Under the pieces are notes generated by a model. It saw nothing but the letters and a program-made list of their open reading frames with translations. It searched no databases and was not told the origin of the DNA. This document shows positions 14,761-34,417 of a stretch of 40,301 nucleotides of DNA, piece by piece; the first letter of the stretch is position 1, and the number at the start of each line of letters is the position of its first letter. The DNA is from a virus, in the IMG/VR virus record IMGVR_UViG_3300036861_000247, positions 1 through 40,301 of that record. The stretch is one strand, 5' to 3'. Both the position numbers and the translations under genes were made by a program.

Positions 14761-16002
14761 ATGTGGTTCTCGGACTGGGCCATCATCCCGGAGTACCTTC
14801 ACGGCTACGTCGCAACCGTCAAGGCTAGCGACCTCTCGGCAGCGACCGCCGCATCTCTCGCCGCCGCCCCCGCCCCGCTCTACAGCGTCACGCCCGATGG
14901 CCTCGCTGTCATCGACATCTCTGGCCCGATGGCGAAGTACGGGTCAAGCGTGCAAGCGATCGTTGGTGGCACCTCCACTCTGGAGAAGCGCGCTGCCCTG
15001 CGTTCCGCCCTGCGCGACCCGGAAGTCCGCGGGATCGTCGTCAAAATCGATTCGCCCGGAGGCGTCGTTAGTGGATCTGGCGACCTGGCAGCAGCGGTAG
15101 CAGCCACAGACAAGGTCAAGCCCGTCTACGCCTTCATCGAGGACCTCGGGGCGAGCGCTGCCTACCGGGTGGCCTCGCGCGCGCGGAAGGTCTATGCGAA
15201 CGCGGATGCCCAGGTCGGGAGCATCGGCACCTACGCGACGCTCATTGATTCCTCGGGCGCCTACGCCAAGGAAGGCGTGACCGTCGAGGTGATCTCCACG
15301 GGCGAATACAAGGGCCTCGGCGTGGACGGAACTCCTATCACAGACAAGCAGCGGGCCGAGACGCAGCGGCGCGTGAACGCGCTGAATGAGCAATTCCTGG
15401 CCGACGTGTCCATGGGCAGACGCATGCCCATGGACAAGGTGCGGCGGTTGGCAGACGGACGAGTCCACATGGCCGCAGCCGCCAAGGAGCTGGGCCTCAT
15501 AGATTCGGTGTCCTCGTGGGAACAGGCCACGCAGGAGATCGGGAGGGCGTTGATGGAGGAGCAGGTGTTGGAGGCCGCGACAGCCCGCGCTGAGGCGGCG
15601 GAAGCCAAGGTGGCTGAACTGGTGGCCAAGGCAGCGAAGGCCGAGGCCGCGCTCGCGGAGATCGCGCGCAAGGAGCGTCAGGCATCTTTCGAAGCGAAGG
15701 TCGCTGGCCTGAAGAACCTCAAGGCCCCGGTCTCGTTCGCGGCGGCGCTGGAGGCTTTGCAGTCTGCGGCCCCCGAGGCTTTCGCGGTTCTCGAGGCGCA
15801 GATCAGCGCCTGGGACGCGCAGAGCACCACGGCGGGCCTGTTCAGCGAGATCGGCACGTCTGCGTCCGGCCCGTCGAAGGTGGACACCTCCGATCCGGTG
15901 GCGTTCCGCGCGGCGGCTGACGCCCTCGTGAAGGCTGAGAAGTTCAAGGACAGACCGACCGCCATGGCGGCAATCCTGCGTGAGCAGGGGGAGAGGAAGT
16001 AA
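14761..16002 (+). CDS. Capsid maturation protease with scaffold-like tail (S49/SppA type)
   Basis: 413 residues from ATG 14761; a TTG at 14704 in the same frame would lie within the hairpin and is rejected. SppA-type motifs: KIDSPGGVV (about 96-103), the nucleophile Ser132 in GASAAY, and Lys184 in GEYKG, the 52-residue Ser-Lys spacing known for SppA. After about residue 255 comes an Ala/Glu/Lys-rich helical coiled coil (EAATARAEAAEAKVAELVAK), the type of fused scaffold region in capsid proteases. It should assemble the procapsid and trim head proteins. Ends in TAATG with the decoration gene. Confidence 0.9.
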   Translation: MWFSDWAIIPEYLHGYVATVKASDLSAATAASLAAAPAPLYSVTPDGLAVIDISGPMAKYGSSVQAIVGGTSTLEKRAALRSALRDPEVRGIVVKIDSPGGVVSGSGDLAAAVAATDKVKPVYAFIEDLGASAAYRVASRARKVYANADAQVGSIGTYATLIDSSGAYAKEGVTVEVISTGEYKGLGVDGTPITDKQRAETQRRVNALNEQFLADVSMGRRMPMDKVRRLADGRVHMAAAAKELGLIDSVSSWEQATQEIGRALMEEQVLEAATARAEAAEAKVAELVAKAAKAEAALAEIARKERQASFEAKVAGLKNLKAPVSFAAALEALQSAAPEAFAVLEAQISAWDAQSTTAGLFSEIGTSASGPSKVDTSDPVAFRAAADALVKAEKFKDRPTAMAAILREQGERK

Positions 16003-22425: not shown

Positions 22426-22902
22426 ATGCCGACGCGTCGTGAGAGTCGCGGACTGGACGCCTTCGTCTCAAAGAGATCGATCCGAGTAACCGGCCTCGAT
22501 GAAGTGGCAGACATGATCGGCTCCCTGGGTAAGGACGGACGTGAGGCGGCCAGGCTGGTGCTTGTTGAAAAGGGGAACGAGATCGTTAAGCGGGCCAAAC
22601 CGCTGACGCCGGATGATCCCGAGACGCAGGGGGCGCTGAGAGATTCCGTGCGCCTCTCTCAGACGAGAGCCAGCGCGAAGAAAGGCACGATCACGGTCAG
22701 CGTCATGGCCGGCGGGAAGCCGCTGGAGAAGCGCCTCAAGGGCCACAAGTACAGCGCCTGGGCTCTCGTCCAGCACGAGGACTTGGCGCTGAAACATCCA
22801 TACGGAGGGGGGCCGAAGTACCTGGAGCGGCCGACCCTGGAAGTTGCGCCGAGCATCCCGGATGCCGTGCTGGCGGCGCTGGAGAAGGTCGCTAAGAAAT
22901 GA
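22426..22902 (+). CDS. HK97 gp10-like protein
   Basis: 158 residues; ATG 22426 directly after the frameshift stop. Central SIRVTGLDEVADMIGSLGKDGREAARLVLVEKGNEIVKRAKPLTPDDP and the C-terminal GHKYSAWALVQHEDLALKHPYGGGPKYLERP follow the HK97 gp10 family pattern (probable head-tail joining or tail terminator protein). Unusually it lies after the chaperones and not before the tail tube. The 3' end overlaps the minus-strand regulator by 11 bp. Confidence 0.75.
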   Translation: MPTRRESRGLDAFVSKRSIRVTGLDEVADMIGSLGKDGREAARLVLVEKGNEIVKRAKPLTPDDPETQGALRDSVRLSQTRASAKKGTITVSVMAGGKPLEKRLKGHKYSAWALVQHEDLALKHPYGGGPKYLERPTLEVAPSIPDAVLAALEKVAKK

Positions 22903-23077
22903 GCGCGATGAAGCGCAGTGCCAGCCTGGGGACCTTGCGCGCGCCCGATTCCCACCGCGCCACCGTCACGGGGTGTACGCCCATGCGCCCCGCGAGCGCG
23001 GCCTGCGTCAGGCCGAGCCTCGTCCGCGCCGCCCGGAACTCTTCGATGTCCGTTGCCCAATCAGCCATTGCACTCAT
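22892..23077 (-). CDS. Small XRE-family regulator, antisense in the late operon
   Basis: 61 residues from ATG 23077 (or ATG 23068). FRAARTRLGLTQAALAGRMGVHPVTVARWESGARKVP is a clean XRE helix-turn-helix; only about 20 residues follow, so no dimerisation or effector domain is visible. It lies convergent to the gp10-like gene and ends inside it. Its own promoter and an operator-like inverted repeat are at 23084-23112. The short length and similar HTH recall the regulator at 30110. Possible role: auto-repressed switch or antisense control of tape-measure transcription. Confidence 0.75.
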   Translation of the reverse strand: MSAMADWATDIEEFRAARTRLGLTQAALAGRMGVHPVTVARWESGARKVPRLALRFIALIS

Positions 23078-23083
23078 GGGACC

Positions 23084-23112
23084 AATATAACCAATGGTTA
23101 GCGCCTTGTCAG
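23084..23112 (-). promoter_or_regulatory. Leftward promoter with embedded operator
   Basis: On the minus strand CTGACA (plus 23107-23112), 17-bp spacer, TATATT (plus 23084-23089): five of six consensus bases in each box. The spacer and -10 edge contain TAACCA-A-TGGTTA on the plus strand (23088-23100), a perfect six-base inverted repeat around one base, suited to a small XRE dimer. Binding there would block this promoter, so autorepression is the simplest reading. Confidence 0.7.
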
Positions 23113-23127
23113 TGATGGGGATCACAC

Positions 23128-25686
23128 GTGGCTAGGGGCGAGGTCCGATTCCGCCTAGTCCTTGACTCAAAAGAGTTTGAGTCCGGGGTCAAGGCGGCAT
23201 CCAAGGAATTCGAGGGGTTCGTCCGGAACCTGGGCGGAGGCGCTGGCGCCCTCGGGTCCATCGCTCAGAAGATGGGGCCGGTCGGTATCGCGATGGCCGC
23301 TGCTGCCGGCCTAGCTACTACTGCGTTTGTGAAGGTGGGTGCCGCAATCGCGGATGTTGTGGAAAAGGCGTCCCACTTGGCGGACATCTCAGCGGCAACA
23401 AATCTGAATGTTGAGAGTCTCCAGCGACTCGCCTATGCGGGATCGCTCGTGGGCGTGAGCCAAGACAGTATCGCTGCCGCAACCTCCAGGATGCTCAAGG
23501 AATTGGGCAACGGGAACGAGGGTTTCGCCCGACTCGGCCTGAACATCACGAGACTGAAGGACATGAAGCCGGAGGAGACTTTCGCCGCAGTCGCGGAGAA
23601 ACTGGCCGCGATCAAAAACCCAGCGGAGCAGGCGTCAGCGGCGGCGGCCATCTTCGGCAAGTCGTTCTCGACCATTCTTCCCCTCATCAAGTCGGACCTT
23701 GCGGAGACGACAGCAGAGGCGGATCGCTTGGGCGTCGTGCTCTCTGAGCAGACGGTCGCCGCTGCGGACGAGGCCGGCGATGCGGGGAAGCGCGTTACAG
23801 CAGCATGGCAAGGATTCAAGGATCAGGTAGCGGGAACCATCGTCGCCGCCTCCGGCATGGACACGCTGCTAAACGATCTGGCGCAGGGGATGGGCGCGCT
23901 CAACAACGCGGCGGCCGACAACGACGCGCTGAAAATCTACGTAGCCCTGCTCGAGCGGTTCACCGGCCTGGGCCAACTGAAGGACGTCGTCAGGATCTTG
24001 AGCCTCATCAACGAGGGCGCGCCACAGCTCAAGGGCGCGACGAAAGCCGGAGTGGGAGGTGTTTTCGCTGGCCCGGCCGATATTGACGCAGAGGCGGCGC
24101 GGATCACTCGGGAGGCGCTGAAGATCGCCCAGCAGCAAGTCAAAGAGCACGAAAAGCTGGTAGCGGCGCGGAAGCGTGTGGCCGAACAGGCGGAGCGCGA
24201 GGCCGTCGCGGCCCGACACACGCTGGCAATTCAGACGAGCATAAACAAGCTCGTTGACGACATGCTCGACGACATCGCGAAAGCCTGGATGAACGCGCCG
24301 ACGCACAACATTCCCTTGCCCATGCCGGGGGCTGGCGCGGGGTTCCTATTCGATCCGAAGGACACCACGCTCTCGGAGAGCACGAAGAAGCTAATTGCCG
24401 ACGCGGAGAAGGCGGCCGACCGTTACCGGAAATGGGGCGACGAGGCCGCCCGACTCGGCAGCATCCTGGGCGGCCCGGTAGGGGCAGCGGTAGGTGGGCT
24501 CGCCGCAATATTCGACACCCTCTCAGAGCACGAGAAGCAAGCCGCGGCCAACTTGGAAGCGTACGGCTCGCGGGCCATGACGGGCAAGCAAAAGGTCGTC
24601 GCTCTTGCCGAAGGGCTCGCGGCTGTGGCGGCAGCCTTCGAGCAGGGCGTCCGATCCGCCTCGAAGTGGAAGGGCGCGGTACACGGCGCGCTCACGGGCG
24701 CGAGCGCGGGCGCAGCGTTCGGCCCATACGGCGCAGCCGCGGGCGCCATCATCGGCGGCATTGCGGGATTCCTGGGCGGGAAAAAGGGCGAGCAGCAGCA
24801 ACTTGCCGCAGCGCGGGAGGAGTTCGAGAGGCTCCAGGCGGCGGCGCTGGCGGCCGGGATCCAGTTCGGCCATACCTTCGACCCCCGCACGTTGCAGGAC
24901 TTCAAGTTCTACATCGATGAGATCAACCGCGCGCTCGGACTCCAGACGGAAGCGGAGAACGCGCTGCACGATGCCATGGAGAAGTACGGCATCACCATCG
25001 ATCAGCTTGGGCCGAAGTGGGCGCAGCAGGAACTGGACAAGAAGGCTGCCGGCCTACTCCAAGACTGGCAGCTTCTGAATGCGGCAGGAGTCGATCACCT
25101 CGTACTGGCCGAGAAGATGGGGCCAGCCATGAACGAGTACGTCAATCTGGCCGTGAAAGCTGGGGCCGACATTCCGCTTTCAATGAAGCCGATCCTAGAT
25201 GACCTGTATCAGCAAGGGAAACTCGTTCACGAAAACGGCGAGGCGTACACGGAGGAAGAGTACAAGGCCCTGAAGTACGGCGAGACGATGACGCAGATGT
25301 TCCAAGGGCTGCTGAAGAAGATCGAGGAGCTCGTCAACGCCATCCTGGGCATTCCGAACAAGGACGTGGATATCAACGTCCGCACGAAGTACCCCAGTGG
25401 GCCGCCGCCGTCTGACTGGACGGGACCGTGGAACTACGACGGGACACCGGACAGGGATCACAACCCTTACACACCGATGGCGCAGGGCGGGATCGTCAGG
25501 AGTCCCACGCCCGCGCTGCTGGGGGAGGCCGGGCCGGAAATGGTCCTCCCGCTGAGGCAGGCTCCGACCGTGCTCGGGCTCGGGGATCTGGAAAGCCTCT
25601 TGCGCAGCATCGACTATCGGCTAGGCCAACAGCCGCGCGTGCTCGGGACCGTCGTGCGTGACGCCGTGATGCAGGGGAGGGCCTGA
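23128..25686 (+). CDS. Tail tape measure protein
   Basis: 852 residues from GTG 23128, with GGGGA upstream. N-terminus VRFRLVLDSKEFESGVKAASKEFEGFVRNLGGG is typical for tape measures, followed by long Ala-rich helical stretches, hydrophobic Gly/Ala segments (about residues 48-70 and 515-560, GALTGASAGAAFGPYGAAAGAIIGGIAGFLG) and the C-terminal GGIVRSPTPALLGEAGPEMVLPL motif found in many tape measures. It sets tail length and may pass through membranes during ejection. By the usual rule of about 1.5 angstrom per residue a tail of roughly 120-130 nm is expected. Confidence 0.92.
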   Translation: MARGEVRFRLVLDSKEFESGVKAASKEFEGFVRNLGGGAGALGSIAQKMGPVGIAMAAAAGLATTAFVKVGAAIADVVEKASHLADISAATNLNVESLQRLAYAGSLVGVSQDSIAAATSRMLKELGNGNEGFARLGLNITRLKDMKPEETFAAVAEKLAAIKNPAEQASAAAAIFGKSFSTILPLIKSDLAETTAEADRLGVVLSEQTVAAADEAGDAGKRVTAAWQGFKDQVAGTIVAASGMDTLLNDLAQGMGALNNAAADNDALKIYVALLERFTGLGQLKDVVRILSLINEGAPQLKGATKAGVGGVFAGPADIDAEAARITREALKIAQQQVKEHEKLVAARKRVAEQAEREAVAARHTLAIQTSINKLVDDMLDDIAKAWMNAPTHNIPLPMPGAGAGFLFDPKDTTLSESTKKLIADAEKAADRYRKWGDEAARLGSILGGPVGAAVGGLAAIFDTLSEHEKQAAANLEAYGSRAMTGKQKVVALAEGLAAVAAAFEQGVRSASKWKGAVHGALTGASAGAAFGPYGAAAGAIIGGIAGFLGGKKGEQQQLAAAREEFERLQAAALAAGIQFGHTFDPRTLQDFKFYIDEINRALGLQTEAENALHDAMEKYGITIDQLGPKWAQQELDKKAAGLLQDWQLLNAAGVDHLVLAEKMGPAMNEYVNLAVKAGADIPLSMKPILDDLYQQGKLVHENGEAYTEEEYKALKYGETMTQMFQGLLKKIEELVNAILGIPNKDVDINVRTKYPSGPPPSDWTGPWNYDGTPDRDHNPYTPMAQGGIVRSPTPALLGEAGPEMVLPLRQAPTVLGLGDLESLLRSIDYRLGQQPRVLGTVVRDAVMQGRA

Positions 25687-29137: not shown

Positions 29138-29483
29138 CGGCCGACCATGCGCGCAGGTTCCGCGAGACGATATAGCCCGTCCCCAAGATCACCACGCCGC
29201 GCCCGATCCACAGCGTCCGCTTGCTGACACGGTGACTCGCGTACTCGTCGAGCCAGGTGGAGCCAGCCCAGACGGTGGCCTCGATGGCGAGCCTGGAGCC
29301 CCGGCTGCCCATGAGCGGGTTTGCCTCCTTGACGCCGCGCGCGCGAAACATCTCCGTGGTCACGAGGTCGGACACGGCGAGTCCCCCGTAGAGGACAGCG
29401 GGTGTCCGGAAGTTGCGTTCGCCGGCCGCGGCGGGTGTGCCGGCAAGGATCACCAAGAGGACGGCAATCAGGGCGCGCATCAC
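29109..29483 (-). CDS. Exported or membrane protein of minus cassette
   Basis: 124 residues from GTG 29483, with ATG immediately after. A Sec-type signal peptide (ALIAVLLVILAGTPAAAG) is followed by TPAVLYGGLAVSDLVTTEMFRARGVKEANPLMG, a segment seen in small bacterial membrane proteins, and hydrophobic parts near residues 92-108. GTGA-coupled to the lipoprotein gene upstream on the same strand. The 3' end overlaps the LamG protein gene by 29 bp, convergently. Not a virion module gene; suits a lysogenic-conversion protein. Confidence 0.7.
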   Translation of the reverse strand: MMRALIAVLLVILAGTPAAAGERNFRTPAVLYGGLAVSDLVTTEMFRARGVKEANPLMGSRGSRLAIEATVWAGSTWLDEYASHRVSKRTLWIGRGVVILGTGYIVSRNLRAWSAAKRPDARPR

Positions 29484-29956
29484 AGCGGCCGGACCATGAC
29501 CAGAGTATAGAACGTCGTCGCGGTGCCTTGGTAATAGACAACGCGGACTTCGTAGTCGCCGGGTGTGACGGTACTACTCATGTTCTCCGGGTGTGTTACG
29601 TCCAATGTGCGGATGAGCCTTTGCGACCCGCGCCACAGCTCGAGGTCCAGGTCCGTGTCTCGCGGTGACCAGTTCAGTTCCGCGCTAAACGGTCCTTCTC
29701 TCGTAACGGTGAACCCATAGCGCTTGCATGGCTTGCTGTCGTGGATGCTTCCGGGACTCGAGCAACCCTCATTCCCCGCGCTGAGCGCTCCGGCGATGCT
29801 GTCACGGATGCTCGTCGCCGGGGTAGGTGTGGGTGTAGGGGTCGGCGTGGGGGCCGGGGTAGGAGTTGCCGTGGGGACAGCTACCGGCGTTGGTCCAGAG
29901 GTACCACCACCACAGGCCGCCAAGGGGATGAGCATCAGCGTGATCGCGAACCGCAT
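29480..29956 (-). CDS. Lipoprotein with TP-repeat linker
   Basis: 158 residues from ATG 29956, with GGAGGT (plus 29962-29967) five bases upstream on the minus strand. Signal peptide ends in a good lipobox LAAC (Cys15) followed by GGGTSG. A proline linker of alternating Thr-Pro (about residues 30-47) spaces off a compact beta domain with two Cys (EGCSSP and KPCKRY) and DTDLDLELWRGSQ, like pre-peptidase C-terminal domains that bind outside. The strand and control differ from the tail genes, so expression in the lysogen is likely. Role, for example superinfection exclusion, is inferred. Confidence 0.8.
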   Translation of the reverse strand: MRFAITLMLIPLAACGGGTSGPTPVAVPTATPTPAPTPTPTPTPTPATSIRDSIAGALSAGNEGCSSPGSIHDSKPCKRYGFTVTREGPFSAELNWSPRDTDLDLELWRGSQRLIRTLDVTHPENMSSTVTPGDYEVRVVYYQGTATTFYTLVMVRPL

Positions 29957-30046: not shown

Positions 30047-30082
30047 CGATATTGACCCATGGGTCAAGGCCCGCGAATATCG
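30047..30082 (+). promoter_or_regulatory. 16-bp palindromic operator with rightward promoter
   Basis: TTGACCCATGGGTCAA (30052-30067) is a perfect 16-bp palindrome. It is bracketed by CGATATT (30047-30053) and AATATCG (30076-30082), a second inverted repeat. The left half gives a -35 TTGACC with GAATAT (30075-30080) 17 bp further, so a rightward promoter overlaps the palindrome. A regulator bound there would control the XRE gene at 30110 and perhaps the leftward lipoprotein cassette. Confidence 0.65.
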
Positions 30083-30109
30083 GCAAAGTCTTAGGTTACC
30101 CTACCCCCT

Positions 30110-30286
30110 ACGACTGGCGCGGAGCTACGGAAGATCCGGCTCCGGCTCGGCCTGACCCAGGGGCAGATGGCGGCGAAAATGGGCGTCCCCCGAGAGACTT
30201 ACAACCGTTGGGAGCGAAGGGGCCGTAGGCGCCTCTGGGAGCCCATTGGGCGTCTCGCCGAGTACCTGAGCCGCACCAGACGCTAG
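30110..30286 (+). CDS. Small XRE-family regulator with apparent ACG start
   Basis: 58 residues if translation starts at ACG 30110, giving MTGAELRKIRLRLGLTQGQM, the standard beginning of XRE repressors. No ATG, GTG, TTG or CTG exists between the in-frame stop at 30092 and codon 15. The HTH continues AKMGVPRETYNRWERRGRRRLWEPIGRLAEYL with the full helix set. No ribosome site is seen, so leaderless or weak non-AUG initiation, or a start-codon mutation (ATG to ACG), are the options. Its position between moron cassette and integrase is where a lysogeny regulator is expected. Confidence 0.65.
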   Translation, partial: TTGAELRKIRLRLGLTQGQMAAKMGVPRETYNRWERRGRRRLWEPIGRLAEYLSRTRR

Positions 30287-30413: not shown

Positions 30414-30779
30414 ATGATCCCTCCGCCTGACGTAGCGCCCAGCGTCCTTCAGGCTCTTGCCCGACTGACGGAGGCCCTCCGTCCGGTGACGGGGTACCAG
30501 GCCATGATGCTCGGCCTCGTCCTGTTCGAGCAGGCGACCGAACTGTATGCGAGGGGTGCAGTCCCGGAAACTGTCATACACGGCGGTAACGGTGCCGGCG
30601 GATCGCAGACAGTGCGCGATCGATGGATCTCACAGCAAGAGGCCGCCGACCGACTCGGGATCTCCCCACGCACCCTTCGACGACGCGCCTACCGCGCCCT
30701 GATCGTTGGACGGGGGAAGGTGTCCGAGGTGGCGTTGAACGAGTTCATGAGATGCGAGCGAGAACGTGCGCGTCGGTAG
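30414..30779 (+). CDS. Excisionase-like HTH protein
   Basis: 121 residues from ATG 30414, chosen because CGGAG lies 7 bp upstream; GTG 30396 is possible. The C-terminus WISQQEAADRLGISPRTLRRRAYRALIVGRGKVSEVALNEFMR is the MerR/excisionase-type winged HTH seen in phage Xis-like proteins (HTH_17). The N-terminal 75 residues are a helical unknown region. Just before the integrase gene, as excisionases usually are. It could also be the recombination directionality factor or a regulator. Confidence 0.75.
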   Translation: MIPPPDVAPSVLQALARLTEALRPVTGYQAMMLGLVLFEQATELYARGAVPETVIHGGNGAGGSQTVRDRWISQQEAADRLGISPRTLRRRAYRALIVGRGKVSEVALNEFMRCERERARR

Positions 30780-30789
30780 GCTGGCCCTG

Positions 30790-32028
30790 ATGGGCGAGCG
30801 CGGAATCGTCCATCTGTTTCATCCTACCTGGACCGAGCCGGACCCCGACAATCCGGGGAAGCGCCGGCGGCGCATCGCAAGCACCTGGGCTTGGCGCTTT
30901 GAGTGGCGAAAGAAGAAGTACGGCCGCGCCGACAGCTACAAGACGAAGGCGGAGGCCCGAGACGCTGGCCAGAAACGTATGGCCCAGGTCAGGGCCGGGC
31001 TGGAGGAAGATCCGCTCAAGGTGGGGTTCGCCGTGCTCGACCGAATCCTGATCGCAGAGGCCGAGCTCCAGGTGCCGTCCACGAAGCACGCCACGCTGAC
31101 CGCCCTGGCCCGGCTCCGGCTGTTCTTCGCTGGAGATCGATTGGCGGAGATCAAGCGCCCTCGTCTTATCGAGTACGTTGCCCATCAGCGGGCCAGGGGC
31201 CGGCAGGACTCGACGACTCGCCAGGATCTGCGGGCACTGAAGCACGCGATGGACTTGGCCCACGAGGAGGGATTGATGATCGCGATCCCGCGATTCCCCA
31301 CGCTGAAGGTGCGCTCACGCCAGCAGACCATCCCGCCGCATGAACTAGACGCCATCGTGGACGAGCTACCCGAGCATTGGGTCAGGTACTACATCATCGC
31401 GGACGAGATCGGCTGGAGGGCTCGGTCGGAGATCAAGACTCGGAAGTGGACGGACGTGGAGTGGGGGCCTCCGTCCTGGGAATGCGGGTGCCCTCCCCCA
31501 GCTTGGCGAGGGACGGAGGTGTGCCCGCTGTGCGGACATGGGCGCCCTGGCTTCGTGCATCTTGACGCGGAGCATTCGAAGACGGGCAAGCCTAGATCGT
31601 TCCCGCTGACGGTTCGTCTCCGTGCGCTTCTGGTGGAACAGCGTATGTGGATAGAGAAGGTCCAGCAGCAGACGGGCCAGGTGATACCGTGGATTTTCTG
31701 CAAGCCCACGGGCGAACCTCTCGGGGACACGCGGAAGGCGTGGCGCTCGGCCTGCAATCGGGCTGGGCTCGGGGAGAGGATCGAGGGACGGACGGGGCCA
31801 TGGAGCTTTGCGAAGGTCCCGCACGACATTCGGCGCACTGTCATTCGCCGGTGGAAGGCGATGGGGGAGCCGATAGACGTACGCATGGCTGCCGCAGGGC
31901 ACGACTCGACCGAAACGCATATGGCCTATGAGGGTGGAGATCCGGAGAGCCTACAGGCGTTCGGGGAGAGGATCGATGAACGGCGAAGGAAGGATGCGGA
32001 AAGGGTCGTAGCAATCAGGAAGGCTTAG
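30790..32028 (+). CDS. int: Tyrosine integrase with zinc-ribbon insert
   Basis: 412 residues from ATG 30790 (GGTAGG 9 bp upstream; GTG 30766 is an alternative). Catalytic set: Arg210 in GWRARSEIK, Lys near 264-267 in HSKTGKPRS, His345-x-x-Arg348 in HDIRRTVIRR, His371 in AAGHDS and Tyr380 in MAYE. Between Arg and Lys lies an extra CxC...CPLC set (Cys232, 234, 245, 248) of about 30 residues, a zinc ribbon inserted in the catalytic domain. The N-terminal arm-binding part and a SAM-like core domain precede it. It integrates the phage into the host chromosome. Confidence 0.92.
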   Translation: MGERGIVHLFHPTWTEPDPDNPGKRRRRIASTWAWRFEWRKKKYGRADSYKTKAEARDAGQKRMAQVRAGLEEDPLKVGFAVLDRILIAEAELQVPSTKHATLTALARLRLFFAGDRLAEIKRPRLIEYVAHQRARGRQDSTTRQDLRALKHAMDLAHEEGLMIAIPRFPTLKVRSRQQTIPPHELDAIVDELPEHWVRYYIIADEIGWRARSEIKTRKWTDVEWGPPSWECGCPPPAWRGTEVCPLCGHGRPGFVHLDAEHSKTGKPRSFPLTVRLRALLVEQRMWIEKVQQQTGQVIPWIFCKPTGEPLGDTRKAWRSACNRAGLGERIEGRTGPWSFAKVPHDIRRTVIRRWKAMGEPIDVRMAAAGHDSTETHMAYEGGDPESLQAFGERIDERRRKDAERVVAIRKA

Positions 32029-32187
32029 AACGTAGGCTCCCACTGGTGGCCAGTTATTCCCCGGCAGGGGCCACTCCGCGGGACCGCCGAAGCAGTTTCG
32101 CCTCACGGCTCATCAGCCGCAAAAGTGCCGGGCCAGATGCTCGCTGCACATGGGAGCCATGCGAGCCCACGGTCTAAGCCTTCCCCC
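32029..32187. other. Gap between convergent integrase and minus gene
   Basis: 159 bp with no gene. It holds CCCC-GGCA-GGGG (32058-32069), CGGCT-CATC-AGCCG (32106-32119) and a spaced GGCTCCCA/TGGGAGCC pair (32035-32042, 32151-32158). attP is often beside int, so it may lie here, but no core can be defined without a host attachment sequence. Confidence 0.35.
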
Positions 32188-32449: not shown

Positions 32450-32478
32450 TTGACAGACCGTGCGGACAGTTTTAGATT
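32450..32478 (+). promoter_or_regulatory. Early-operon promoter
   Basis: TTGACA at 32450-32455, 17-bp spacer, TAGATT at 32473-32478: a perfect -35 and the same -10 as the 14607 promoter. It faces the early operon starting at 32741, with a 260-base leader. It is the best promoter match in the window. A regulator site within the spacer is not obvious. Confidence 0.8.
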
Positions 32479-32740
32479 AGGGTCAATTCAAGCCGCGCCG
32501 CCCGAAGCCCCCCAGAGCGGCGCCATCTGGTCCACGTACTTGAGCGGGGGGCGGGAGATGACCGCCCATGACCCGTCTGGCCCGGAAACCGGGTAGCCCC
32601 AAACCACAGCCGGACAATCTGGGCCGTCCCGTCCTCGCAAGGCACACCCAAGGGGCCGCTCTCCCGTCCCCCGAGGAGGTTTACCGGCGAAGCAGGCGAG
32701 GCGCGGTAGCACCCACTCTCACAAACACAGAGGCGATTGA
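32479..32740 (+). promoter_or_regulatory. Structured 5' leader of the early operon
   Basis: 260 bases without a standard gene. It includes a mini-ORF of 12 codons, ATG 32558 to TAG 32596, ending within the hairpin CCCGG-AAA-CCGGG (32581-32593), and a GC-rich second half with GAGGAGG (32672-32678) that is not next to a start. A leader peptide or attenuator arrangement is conceivable. No known riboswitch consensus was recognised. Confidence 0.45.
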
Positions 32741-33616: not shown

Positions 33617-34417
33617 ATGCCCAGCGTGTTGGTGGTCGAGGTGCCATTGTCGGCGATCCGCCTCGGCCGCGGCCGGCCCCTCTCAGAAAAACACGTCGAG
33701 CAACTCATGTCGTCGATGGCCGAGGTTGGACTCCTGGAGCCGGTCATTGTAGGCAAGGACTATTCCCTGATCGCCGGTTACCACCGATTCAAGGCCGCGC
33801 AACGCCTGGGATGGGAAACGATCCAGGCGGTAACGTTTGAAGGCGACGCGATCGATGCTCAGATCGCGACTATCGACGAGAACCTGATCCGCCGAGAGTT
33901 GACTGTGGCCGAGCGCTCGGAGCTACTGGCCGAGCGAAAGCGCCTCTACGAGGAGAAGCATCCGGAGACGAAACACGGTGGGGATCGCAAGAACGACGAG
34001 ATCAAAACGCGGAATCCGCGTTTTGATCCGGCCCCATCCTCCTTCACCGCCGACGTCGCCGCCAAGACGGGCCGCGGGCGCCGCACGGTGGAGGAGGAGG
34101 TGCGCATCGGCGAGCGCTTGGCCCCAGACGTGATGGAGAAGGTCAAGGCGTCGCCCATCGCCGACTCCAAGGCTGCCCTGAAGTCTCTCGCCGATCTCCC
34201 ACCGGAGCGGCAGCGCGGCATACCGCTCGGGCCGGAGGTCAAGCAAGCGGACGTGGCGAAGCAACTGGAGCGCGAGGTTCGAGAGCAGAAGAAGAAGATG
34301 CCCGCCAAGCGACGTCCGGGCCGCGTAGAACCGTGCCCGCACGATGTCGTCACATGTGATGGCATGGGCGGCTGCGGCAAGACACTGCATCGCGAGGGCA
34401 AGAGGTACGTCGCATGA
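33617..34417 (+). CDS. ParB-like DNA-binding protein B
   Basis: 266 residues; ATG 33617 directly after the TAG of protein A. N-terminal ParB domain: VEVPLSAIRLGRGRPLSEKHVEQLMSSMAEVGLLEPVIVGK with the GYHRFKAAQ box (54-62), then ENLIRRELTVAERSEL. A helical linker leads to an HTH-like part (AAKTGRGRRTVEEEVRIGERLAP) and a basic stretch (EREVREQKKKMPAKRRPGR). The end has CPHDVVTCDGMGGCGKTLHREGKRY, a possible zinc ribbon. DNA- or nucleotide-binding; a role in partition is doubtful without ParA. Coupled by ATGA to the next gene. Confidence 0.8.
   Translation: MPSVLVVEVPLSAIRLGRGRPLSEKHVEQLMSSMAEVGLLEPVIVGKDYSLIAGYHRFKAAQRLGWETIQAVTFEGDAIDAQIATIDENLIRRELTVAERSELLAERKRLYEEKHPETKHGGDRKNDEIKTRNPRFDPAPSSFTADVAAKTGRGRRTVEEEVRIGERLAPDVMEKVKASPIADSKAALKSLADLPPERQRGIPLGPEVKQADVAKQLEREVREQKKKMPAKRRPGRVEPCPHDVVTCDGMGGCGKTLHREGKRYVA

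Follow-up and report, generated by a model that had tools for sequence, protein, structure and literature searches.

A probably amber-interrupted Cro/C1-type regulator frame with a possible leaderless start in a phage from IMG/VR

XRE1 is a small helix-turn-helix (HTH) frame in the lysogeny region of the virus record IMGVR_UViG_3300036861_000247 (40,301 bases, classed linear), the whole of which was analysed and is called here the window. A preliminary description had proposed the ACG codon at 30110 as the start of this gene. XRE1 is read here, tentatively and at somewhat less than an even chance, as a leaderless phage regulator whose native start is the ATG at 30059, whose frame is cut by an amber TAG and in which the ACG is an internal Thr codon. 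The sequence itself shows the frame, the ATG, the stop, the HTH domain, a -10-like element, and a stretch common to the start of a second small XRE gene, XRE2.

The XRE1 mRNA would begin at or adjoining AUG 30059, as is apparently the case for XRE2 and many actinophage repressors. Ribosomes would read 11 codons and halt at amber codon 12. Beyond that codon the same frame passes through the ACG and enters the HTH domain, and the ancestral frame was presumably continuous. The interruption would be due either to a nonsense mutation present in the population that was assembled or to a base error in the record, and the recorded sequence would yield no HTH protein or at most traces of it. XRE1 might also be autoregulated through a palindrome, TTGACCCATGGGTCAA, centred on the ATG.

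The phage and the XRE1 frame

The window belongs to a tailed phage with terminase, portal, protease, capsid, and tape measure genes. In the lysogeny region, a lipoprotein-like gene on the minus strand is followed on the plus strand by XRE1, an excisionase-like HTH gene, and a tyrosine integrase gene, and then by an early promoter and a ParB-like gene (Table 1). The phage looks temperate, since R, K, HDIRR, GH, and Y can all be recognised in the integrase. The generally decayed prophage that had been considered earlier is not supported, as the catalytic residues of the integrase (R, K, HxxR, H, and Y) are all readable and the structural genes open. Neither a tRNA nor a tRNA fragment was found in the window by ARAGORN and Rfam, and the Rfam scan gave 0 matches at gathering thresholds.

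Table 1. Positions of the features discussed, numbered along the window.
Feature	Position	Strand	Remarks
XRE2, second small XRE gene, 61 aa, ATG 23077	22892..23077	-	pLDDT 90.6
XRE2 promoter CTGACA-17-TATATT, 6 nt before ATG, apparently leaderless	23084..23112	-	10/12 matches
Lipoprotein-like gene, divergent from XRE1	29480..29956	-	strong Shine-Dalgarno; signal peptide and lipobox by eye
-10-like GATATT, 5 nt before ATG 30059	30048..30053	+	such a hexamer at 5/1018 ATGs
Perfect 16-bp palindrome TTGACCCATGGGTCAA centred on ATG 30059, candidate operator	30052..30067	+	1.2 expected per window
In-frame ATG and 11-codon open stretch MGQGPRISAKS up to TAG; proposed native leaderless XRE1 start	30059..30094	+	
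In-frame amber stop TAG between ATG 30059 and XRE1	30092..30094	+	TAG ends 17/48 predicted genes
Weak -10-like TACCCT, 7 nt before ACG	30097..30102	+	TANNNT there in 13/1885 ACGs; 3/6 to consensus
ACG codon, the start suggested earlier; taken here as internal Thr	30110..30112	+	aligns with internal Thr14 of UmaThurman repressor
XRE1, Cro/C1-type HTH frame, 58 codons from ACG plus TAG	30110..30286	+	HTH_3 2e-9; best coding frame; 4-helix model
Excisionase-like HTH protein	30414..30779	+	phrog_66 excisionase 2.4e-4, HTH_8
Tyrosine integrase, catalytic residues complete	30766..32028	+	phrog_1 1e-23; R, K, HDIRR, GH, Y
Early promoter TTGACA-17-TAGATT, palindrome half-site GGGTCAA at start point	32450..32486	+	

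Some further elements of the window deserve mention in their own right. The lipoprotein-like gene encodes a Pro-Thr-rich stalk and could serve lysogenic conversion or exclusion. Right behind the integrase (32055-32140, minus strand) lies a hammerhead ribozyme-like RNA of the form CUGAUGAG-CCGUGAGG-CGAAAC-UGCUUCGGCGGUC, whose score with the Rfam HH9 model (15.9 bits) is under the HH9 cutoff; Arthrobacter phage Constance has a counterpart in which stems II and III differ by compensatory changes and GUA replaces GUC. Hammerheads near prophage integrases are already known (PMC3088659). Two palindromes were noted inside coding sequences, namely, GATCAAAACGCGGAATCCGCGTTTTGATC with 14-bp arms in the ParB-like gene (34000-34028) and TGTCCATGGGCAGACGCATGCCCATGGACA with 12-bp arms in the protease gene (15407-15436).

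The open frame of XRE1 spans 30095-30286, directly after the TAG, and its first codons are GTT ACC CTA CCC CCT ACG(30110) ACT GGC GCG GAG CTA CGG. By its profile matches, which include HTH_3 (PF01381, E=2e-9, 37.8 bits against a cutoff of 23) and HTH_31 (PF13560, 4.8e-8, 33.6 bits against a cutoff of 27), the encoded protein is a real XRE domain and a member of the HTH_3/XRE (Cro/C1-type) regulator family. XRE1 is the best coding frame among the six, with a phage-like GC3 of 47/58 and a coding score barely above zero. The predicted fold consists of helices at residues 3-13, 17-24, 28-37, and 44-56 (pLDDT 74.5). The top Foldseek matches of this model include 3cro, 1pra, and 2xcj, with TM of about 0.6-0.7; the 434 Cro/CI matches have a probability of 0.93-0.94 and an E of about 0.5, which is not significant for so short a chain.

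Start and stop signals ahead of the HTH domain

At base level the preliminary description was accurate, as there is no ATG, GTG, TTG, or CTG between the TAG and the HTH, and an ACG stands at 30110. Its statement that this ACG is the only sensible start assumed that the gene begins after the TAG and that relatives open with M-TGAELR. It overlooked the in-frame ATG at 30059, shortly before the stop and 17 codons upstream of the ACG, and the opening MTGAELRKIR was not confirmed as standard for the family, in which the distance from the first residue to the LRK motif varies between 3 and 24 residues. Moreover, about 7 of the 61 sense codons are non-standard near-cognates and roughly 9 codons lie between the stop and helix 1; by our own arithmetic, a near-cognate among so few codons is expected more often than not, so that the ACG by itself is weak evidence.

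Several lines of evidence point to ATG 30059 instead. A single stop separates it from the HTH, and GATATT lies 5 nt upstream, an arrangement that is rare among ATGs. When the ATGs of both strands (n=1018) were counted for a hexamer matching TATAAT at >=4/6 positions (A2 and T6 fixed) 5-7 nt upstream, two of the five that qualified were ATG 30059 and ATG 23077, one in each XRE frame. The sigma-70 promoter search found no good -35 for GATATT. The pattern ATATTG-N0-3-CCCATG occurs in the window only at the XRE1 and XRE2 starts (0.01 expected), although it was noticed before being tested and chosen post hoc, so that the figures overstate the case somewhat. With a 22-base query around ATG 30059, the XRE2 start was the best other match in the window, narrowly (12.0 vs 11.5).

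Comparison with relatives is also consistent with this start. The nearest phage match of XRE1 is the repressor of Gordonia phage UmaThurman (50% over 32 aa, E 0.02, tblastn), which has an internal Thr14 where the ACG falls and an in-frame ATG 13 codons earlier, after TTGACA-17-GATACT. Ten actinophage repressors of the UmaThurman kind start 13-24 residues before the LRK motif, and most of them have a -10-like hexamer 6-7 nt before the ATG (by eye). The distance to LRK is 22 residues from ATG 30059, inside the range of these apparently leaderless repressors, and 5 residues from the ACG. Two small phage XREs that open 3 residues before LRK both have a Shine-Dalgarno, whereas the ACG is without one. 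The -10 element placed 5-7 nt before the ATG, a trait of leaderless actinophage repressors, is present in GATATT-5-ATG 30059 and in XRE2.

TAG is an ordinary stop in this phage and hence not reassigned, and no tRNA was found. Against ATG 30059 stand the lack of a -35, the lack of an uninterrupted orthologue, and the character of the upstream codons. With the repressor-family profile, XRE1 scores 35.5 bits when begun at the ACG and 35.2 bits as the readthrough version; given this lack of gain, the residues upstream of the ACG are not recognisably homologous to the family. The GC3 of codons 30062-30109 (6/15) is low relative to the genes of this phage (0.80; P 0.0008) but not clearly low relative to the N-terminal extensions of relatives (0.61; P 0.08).

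As 1.2 palindromes of its kind are expected by chance per window, TTGACCCATGGGTCAA is weak evidence alone. Its half-site GGGTCAA occurs 10 times in the window vs 4.4 expected, and recurs at the early promoter start point (32480) and at 23186, which is 70 bases upstream of the promoter of XRE2. These repeats are suggestive only; one regulator may act through the half-site at the XRE1 start, the early promoter, and the XRE2 promoter. The palindrome was rejected as a general operator, since it was present in 8 viral contigs, in seven of them within one same unrelated coding frame, and in none upstream of an XRE gene. Two other starts for XRE1 were also set aside. Initiation at the internal ATG 30167 would delete helix 1, and a frameshift from TTG 30052 via the C-run at 30104-30108, while possible, has no support.

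Competing explanations of the missing start

Non-canonical initiation and a broken gene, the two alternatives offered in the preliminary description, were rightly chosen, as the recorded sequence has no ordinary start for the XRE protein downstream of the TAG; the particular forms given to them, a leaderless ACG and the loss of an ATG by change to ACG, fared less well. The ACG could be a rare start of low efficiency, by which the regulator would be kept scarce; ribosomes might initiate at it directly on a leaderless transcript, or reinitiate there once the 11-codon cistron of ATG 30059, 15 nt upstream, has been translated. Between the stop and helix 1 there is no other near-cognate codon, GC3 becomes coding-like just past the ACG, and non-standard starts used for tuning do exist, such as GTC in sigR and ATT/ATC in infC (PMC5472188). 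TACCCT lies upstream, but it is the sole -10-like hexamer before the ACG and has no -35, and the Shine-Dalgarno energy is only -3.1 kcal/mol, which amounts to none. Leaderless AUG starts are common, but in the leaderless position other codons usually initiate poorly, as in E. coli and Caulobacter, while some actinobacteria accept GUG (PMC9031893). No homologue that starts at ACG was found. Use of this codon in any form appears unlikely. A native ATG at 30110, disabled by a single change to ACG or hidden by an assembly error at the C, is quite unlikely. Some small XRE families do have their first residue 1-6 positions ahead of this point: in phrog_6962, 4779, and 7950, residue 1 or 2 is aligned with positions 2, 2, and 7 of the model, and the 434 repressor opens likewise. 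However, no promoter or Shine-Dalgarno fits such a start, whereas ATG 30059 is favoured both by its -10 and start signals and by its likeness to XRE2, and the aligned Thr of UmaThurman is internal.

Other possibilities concern expression rather than the position of the start. The HTH frame could be an unexpressed relic, phage control resting on XRE2, which has a near-consensus promoter, a leaderless ATG, and a confident fold; the coding score of XRE1, only slightly positive, would agree with this. Since the HTH core is well conserved and the GC3 is phage-like, any decay would have to be recent, and we regard a relic as improbable. Low-level readthrough or bypass of the amber codon, with a regulated product of 75 residues starting at ATG 30059, is very unlikely: the stop does stand alone in a frame that is otherwise open and begins with a plausible leaderless ATG, but the window has no suppressor tRNA and TAG is a normal stop. 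A combined arrangement, in which the leaderless 11-codon cistron (ATG 30059-TAG 30092) followed by ACG reinitiation or amber readthrough keeps the regulator very low and the AUG-centred palindrome provides autoregulation, is likewise distinctly improbable.

The assignment of XRE1 as the immunity repressor was not supported. Given its strong promoter and intact frame, XRE2 is a better candidate for the maintaining repressor and possibly the real one; its promoter ranks among the top two sigma-70 matches of the window. XRE2 sits antisense among virion genes, immediately ahead of the tape-measure gene.

If the amber reading of XRE1 is right, the gene would be a small phage regulator of an ordinary kind whose frame is interrupted, and a warning that, where a start codon seems to be missing, in-frame starts past the nearest stop need to be considered. 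Should the ACG or readthrough be used, XRE1 would offer a rare natural example of a phage switch controlled by near-cognate initiation or recoding.

Relatives and known systems

The phage, plasmid, viral-contig, and genome collections yielded no close relative of the lysogeny region, and no uninterrupted orthologous copy of XRE1 was found in the collections searched. The XRE1 protein matched 1 unrelated viral locus and 6 distant genome loci, gave a best E of 0.02 by tblastn against phages, no plasmid match, and nothing in 298 genomes of the phylum of the Gemmatimonadaceae MAG; the readthrough protein as a query gave no better match. The near-DNA pattern of XRE1 was present in 0 contigs. Searches with the integrase found no match in viral contigs, phages, or genomes, and the excisionase-like protein had no match. 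Relatives found via the major capsid protein were without an integrase and without a convincing XRE1, and the single contig with a match to the ParB-like gene stops at the matching gene. For a comparison at the ACG codon no orthologue was found, and the nearest phage match has its internal Thr there.

In UmaThurman (NC_031249), the annotated repressor start, L022:437, falls within helix 1, and the likely true start is the in-frame ATG at 362 (L022:362-436), after TTGACA-17-GATACT.

The closest known systems are actinophage immunity repressors of the leaderless Cro/C1 type (UmaThurman gp36, QuinnAvery gp43, and Petra gp39). XRE1 shares with them the HTH_3 fold, the nearby excisionase-like HTH and tyrosine integrase genes, a -10 before the ATG (6-7 nt in theirs), and an N-terminal extension (13-24 residues in theirs). 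XRE1 differs in being shorter, without their C-terminal tail, interrupted by TAG, and weakly matched in sequence (E 0.02); in this phage, moreover, the excisionase-like gene stands between XRE1 and the integrase. The [VI]P.W N-terminal motif of leaderless actinophage repressors is absent from the XRE1 readthrough frame, which has LPP without the W. Integration-dependent immunity, with attP inside rep and int directly next to it, was not recognised here, as no tRNA-derived attP was found in XRE1. In view of this, of the intervening excisionase-like gene, and of the missing motif, XRE1 was not filed as an integration-dependent repressor.

In lambda cI transcribed from PRM and in the telomere-phage repressors, translation of the regulator begins at an AUG that forms the 5′ end of the mRNA. 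The leaderless AUG is their likeness to the proposed XRE1, from which they differ in being large, two-domain proteins with uninterrupted frames. Lambda cI is also named as leaderless in the literature (PMC9031893). The 434 Cro and CI proteins and P2 C have the same size and fold as XRE1, with no sequence relationship outside the HTH. Finally, infC and Streptomyces sigR have experimentally shown ATT, ATC, or GTC starts, and XRE1 would resemble them only if its ACG is used.
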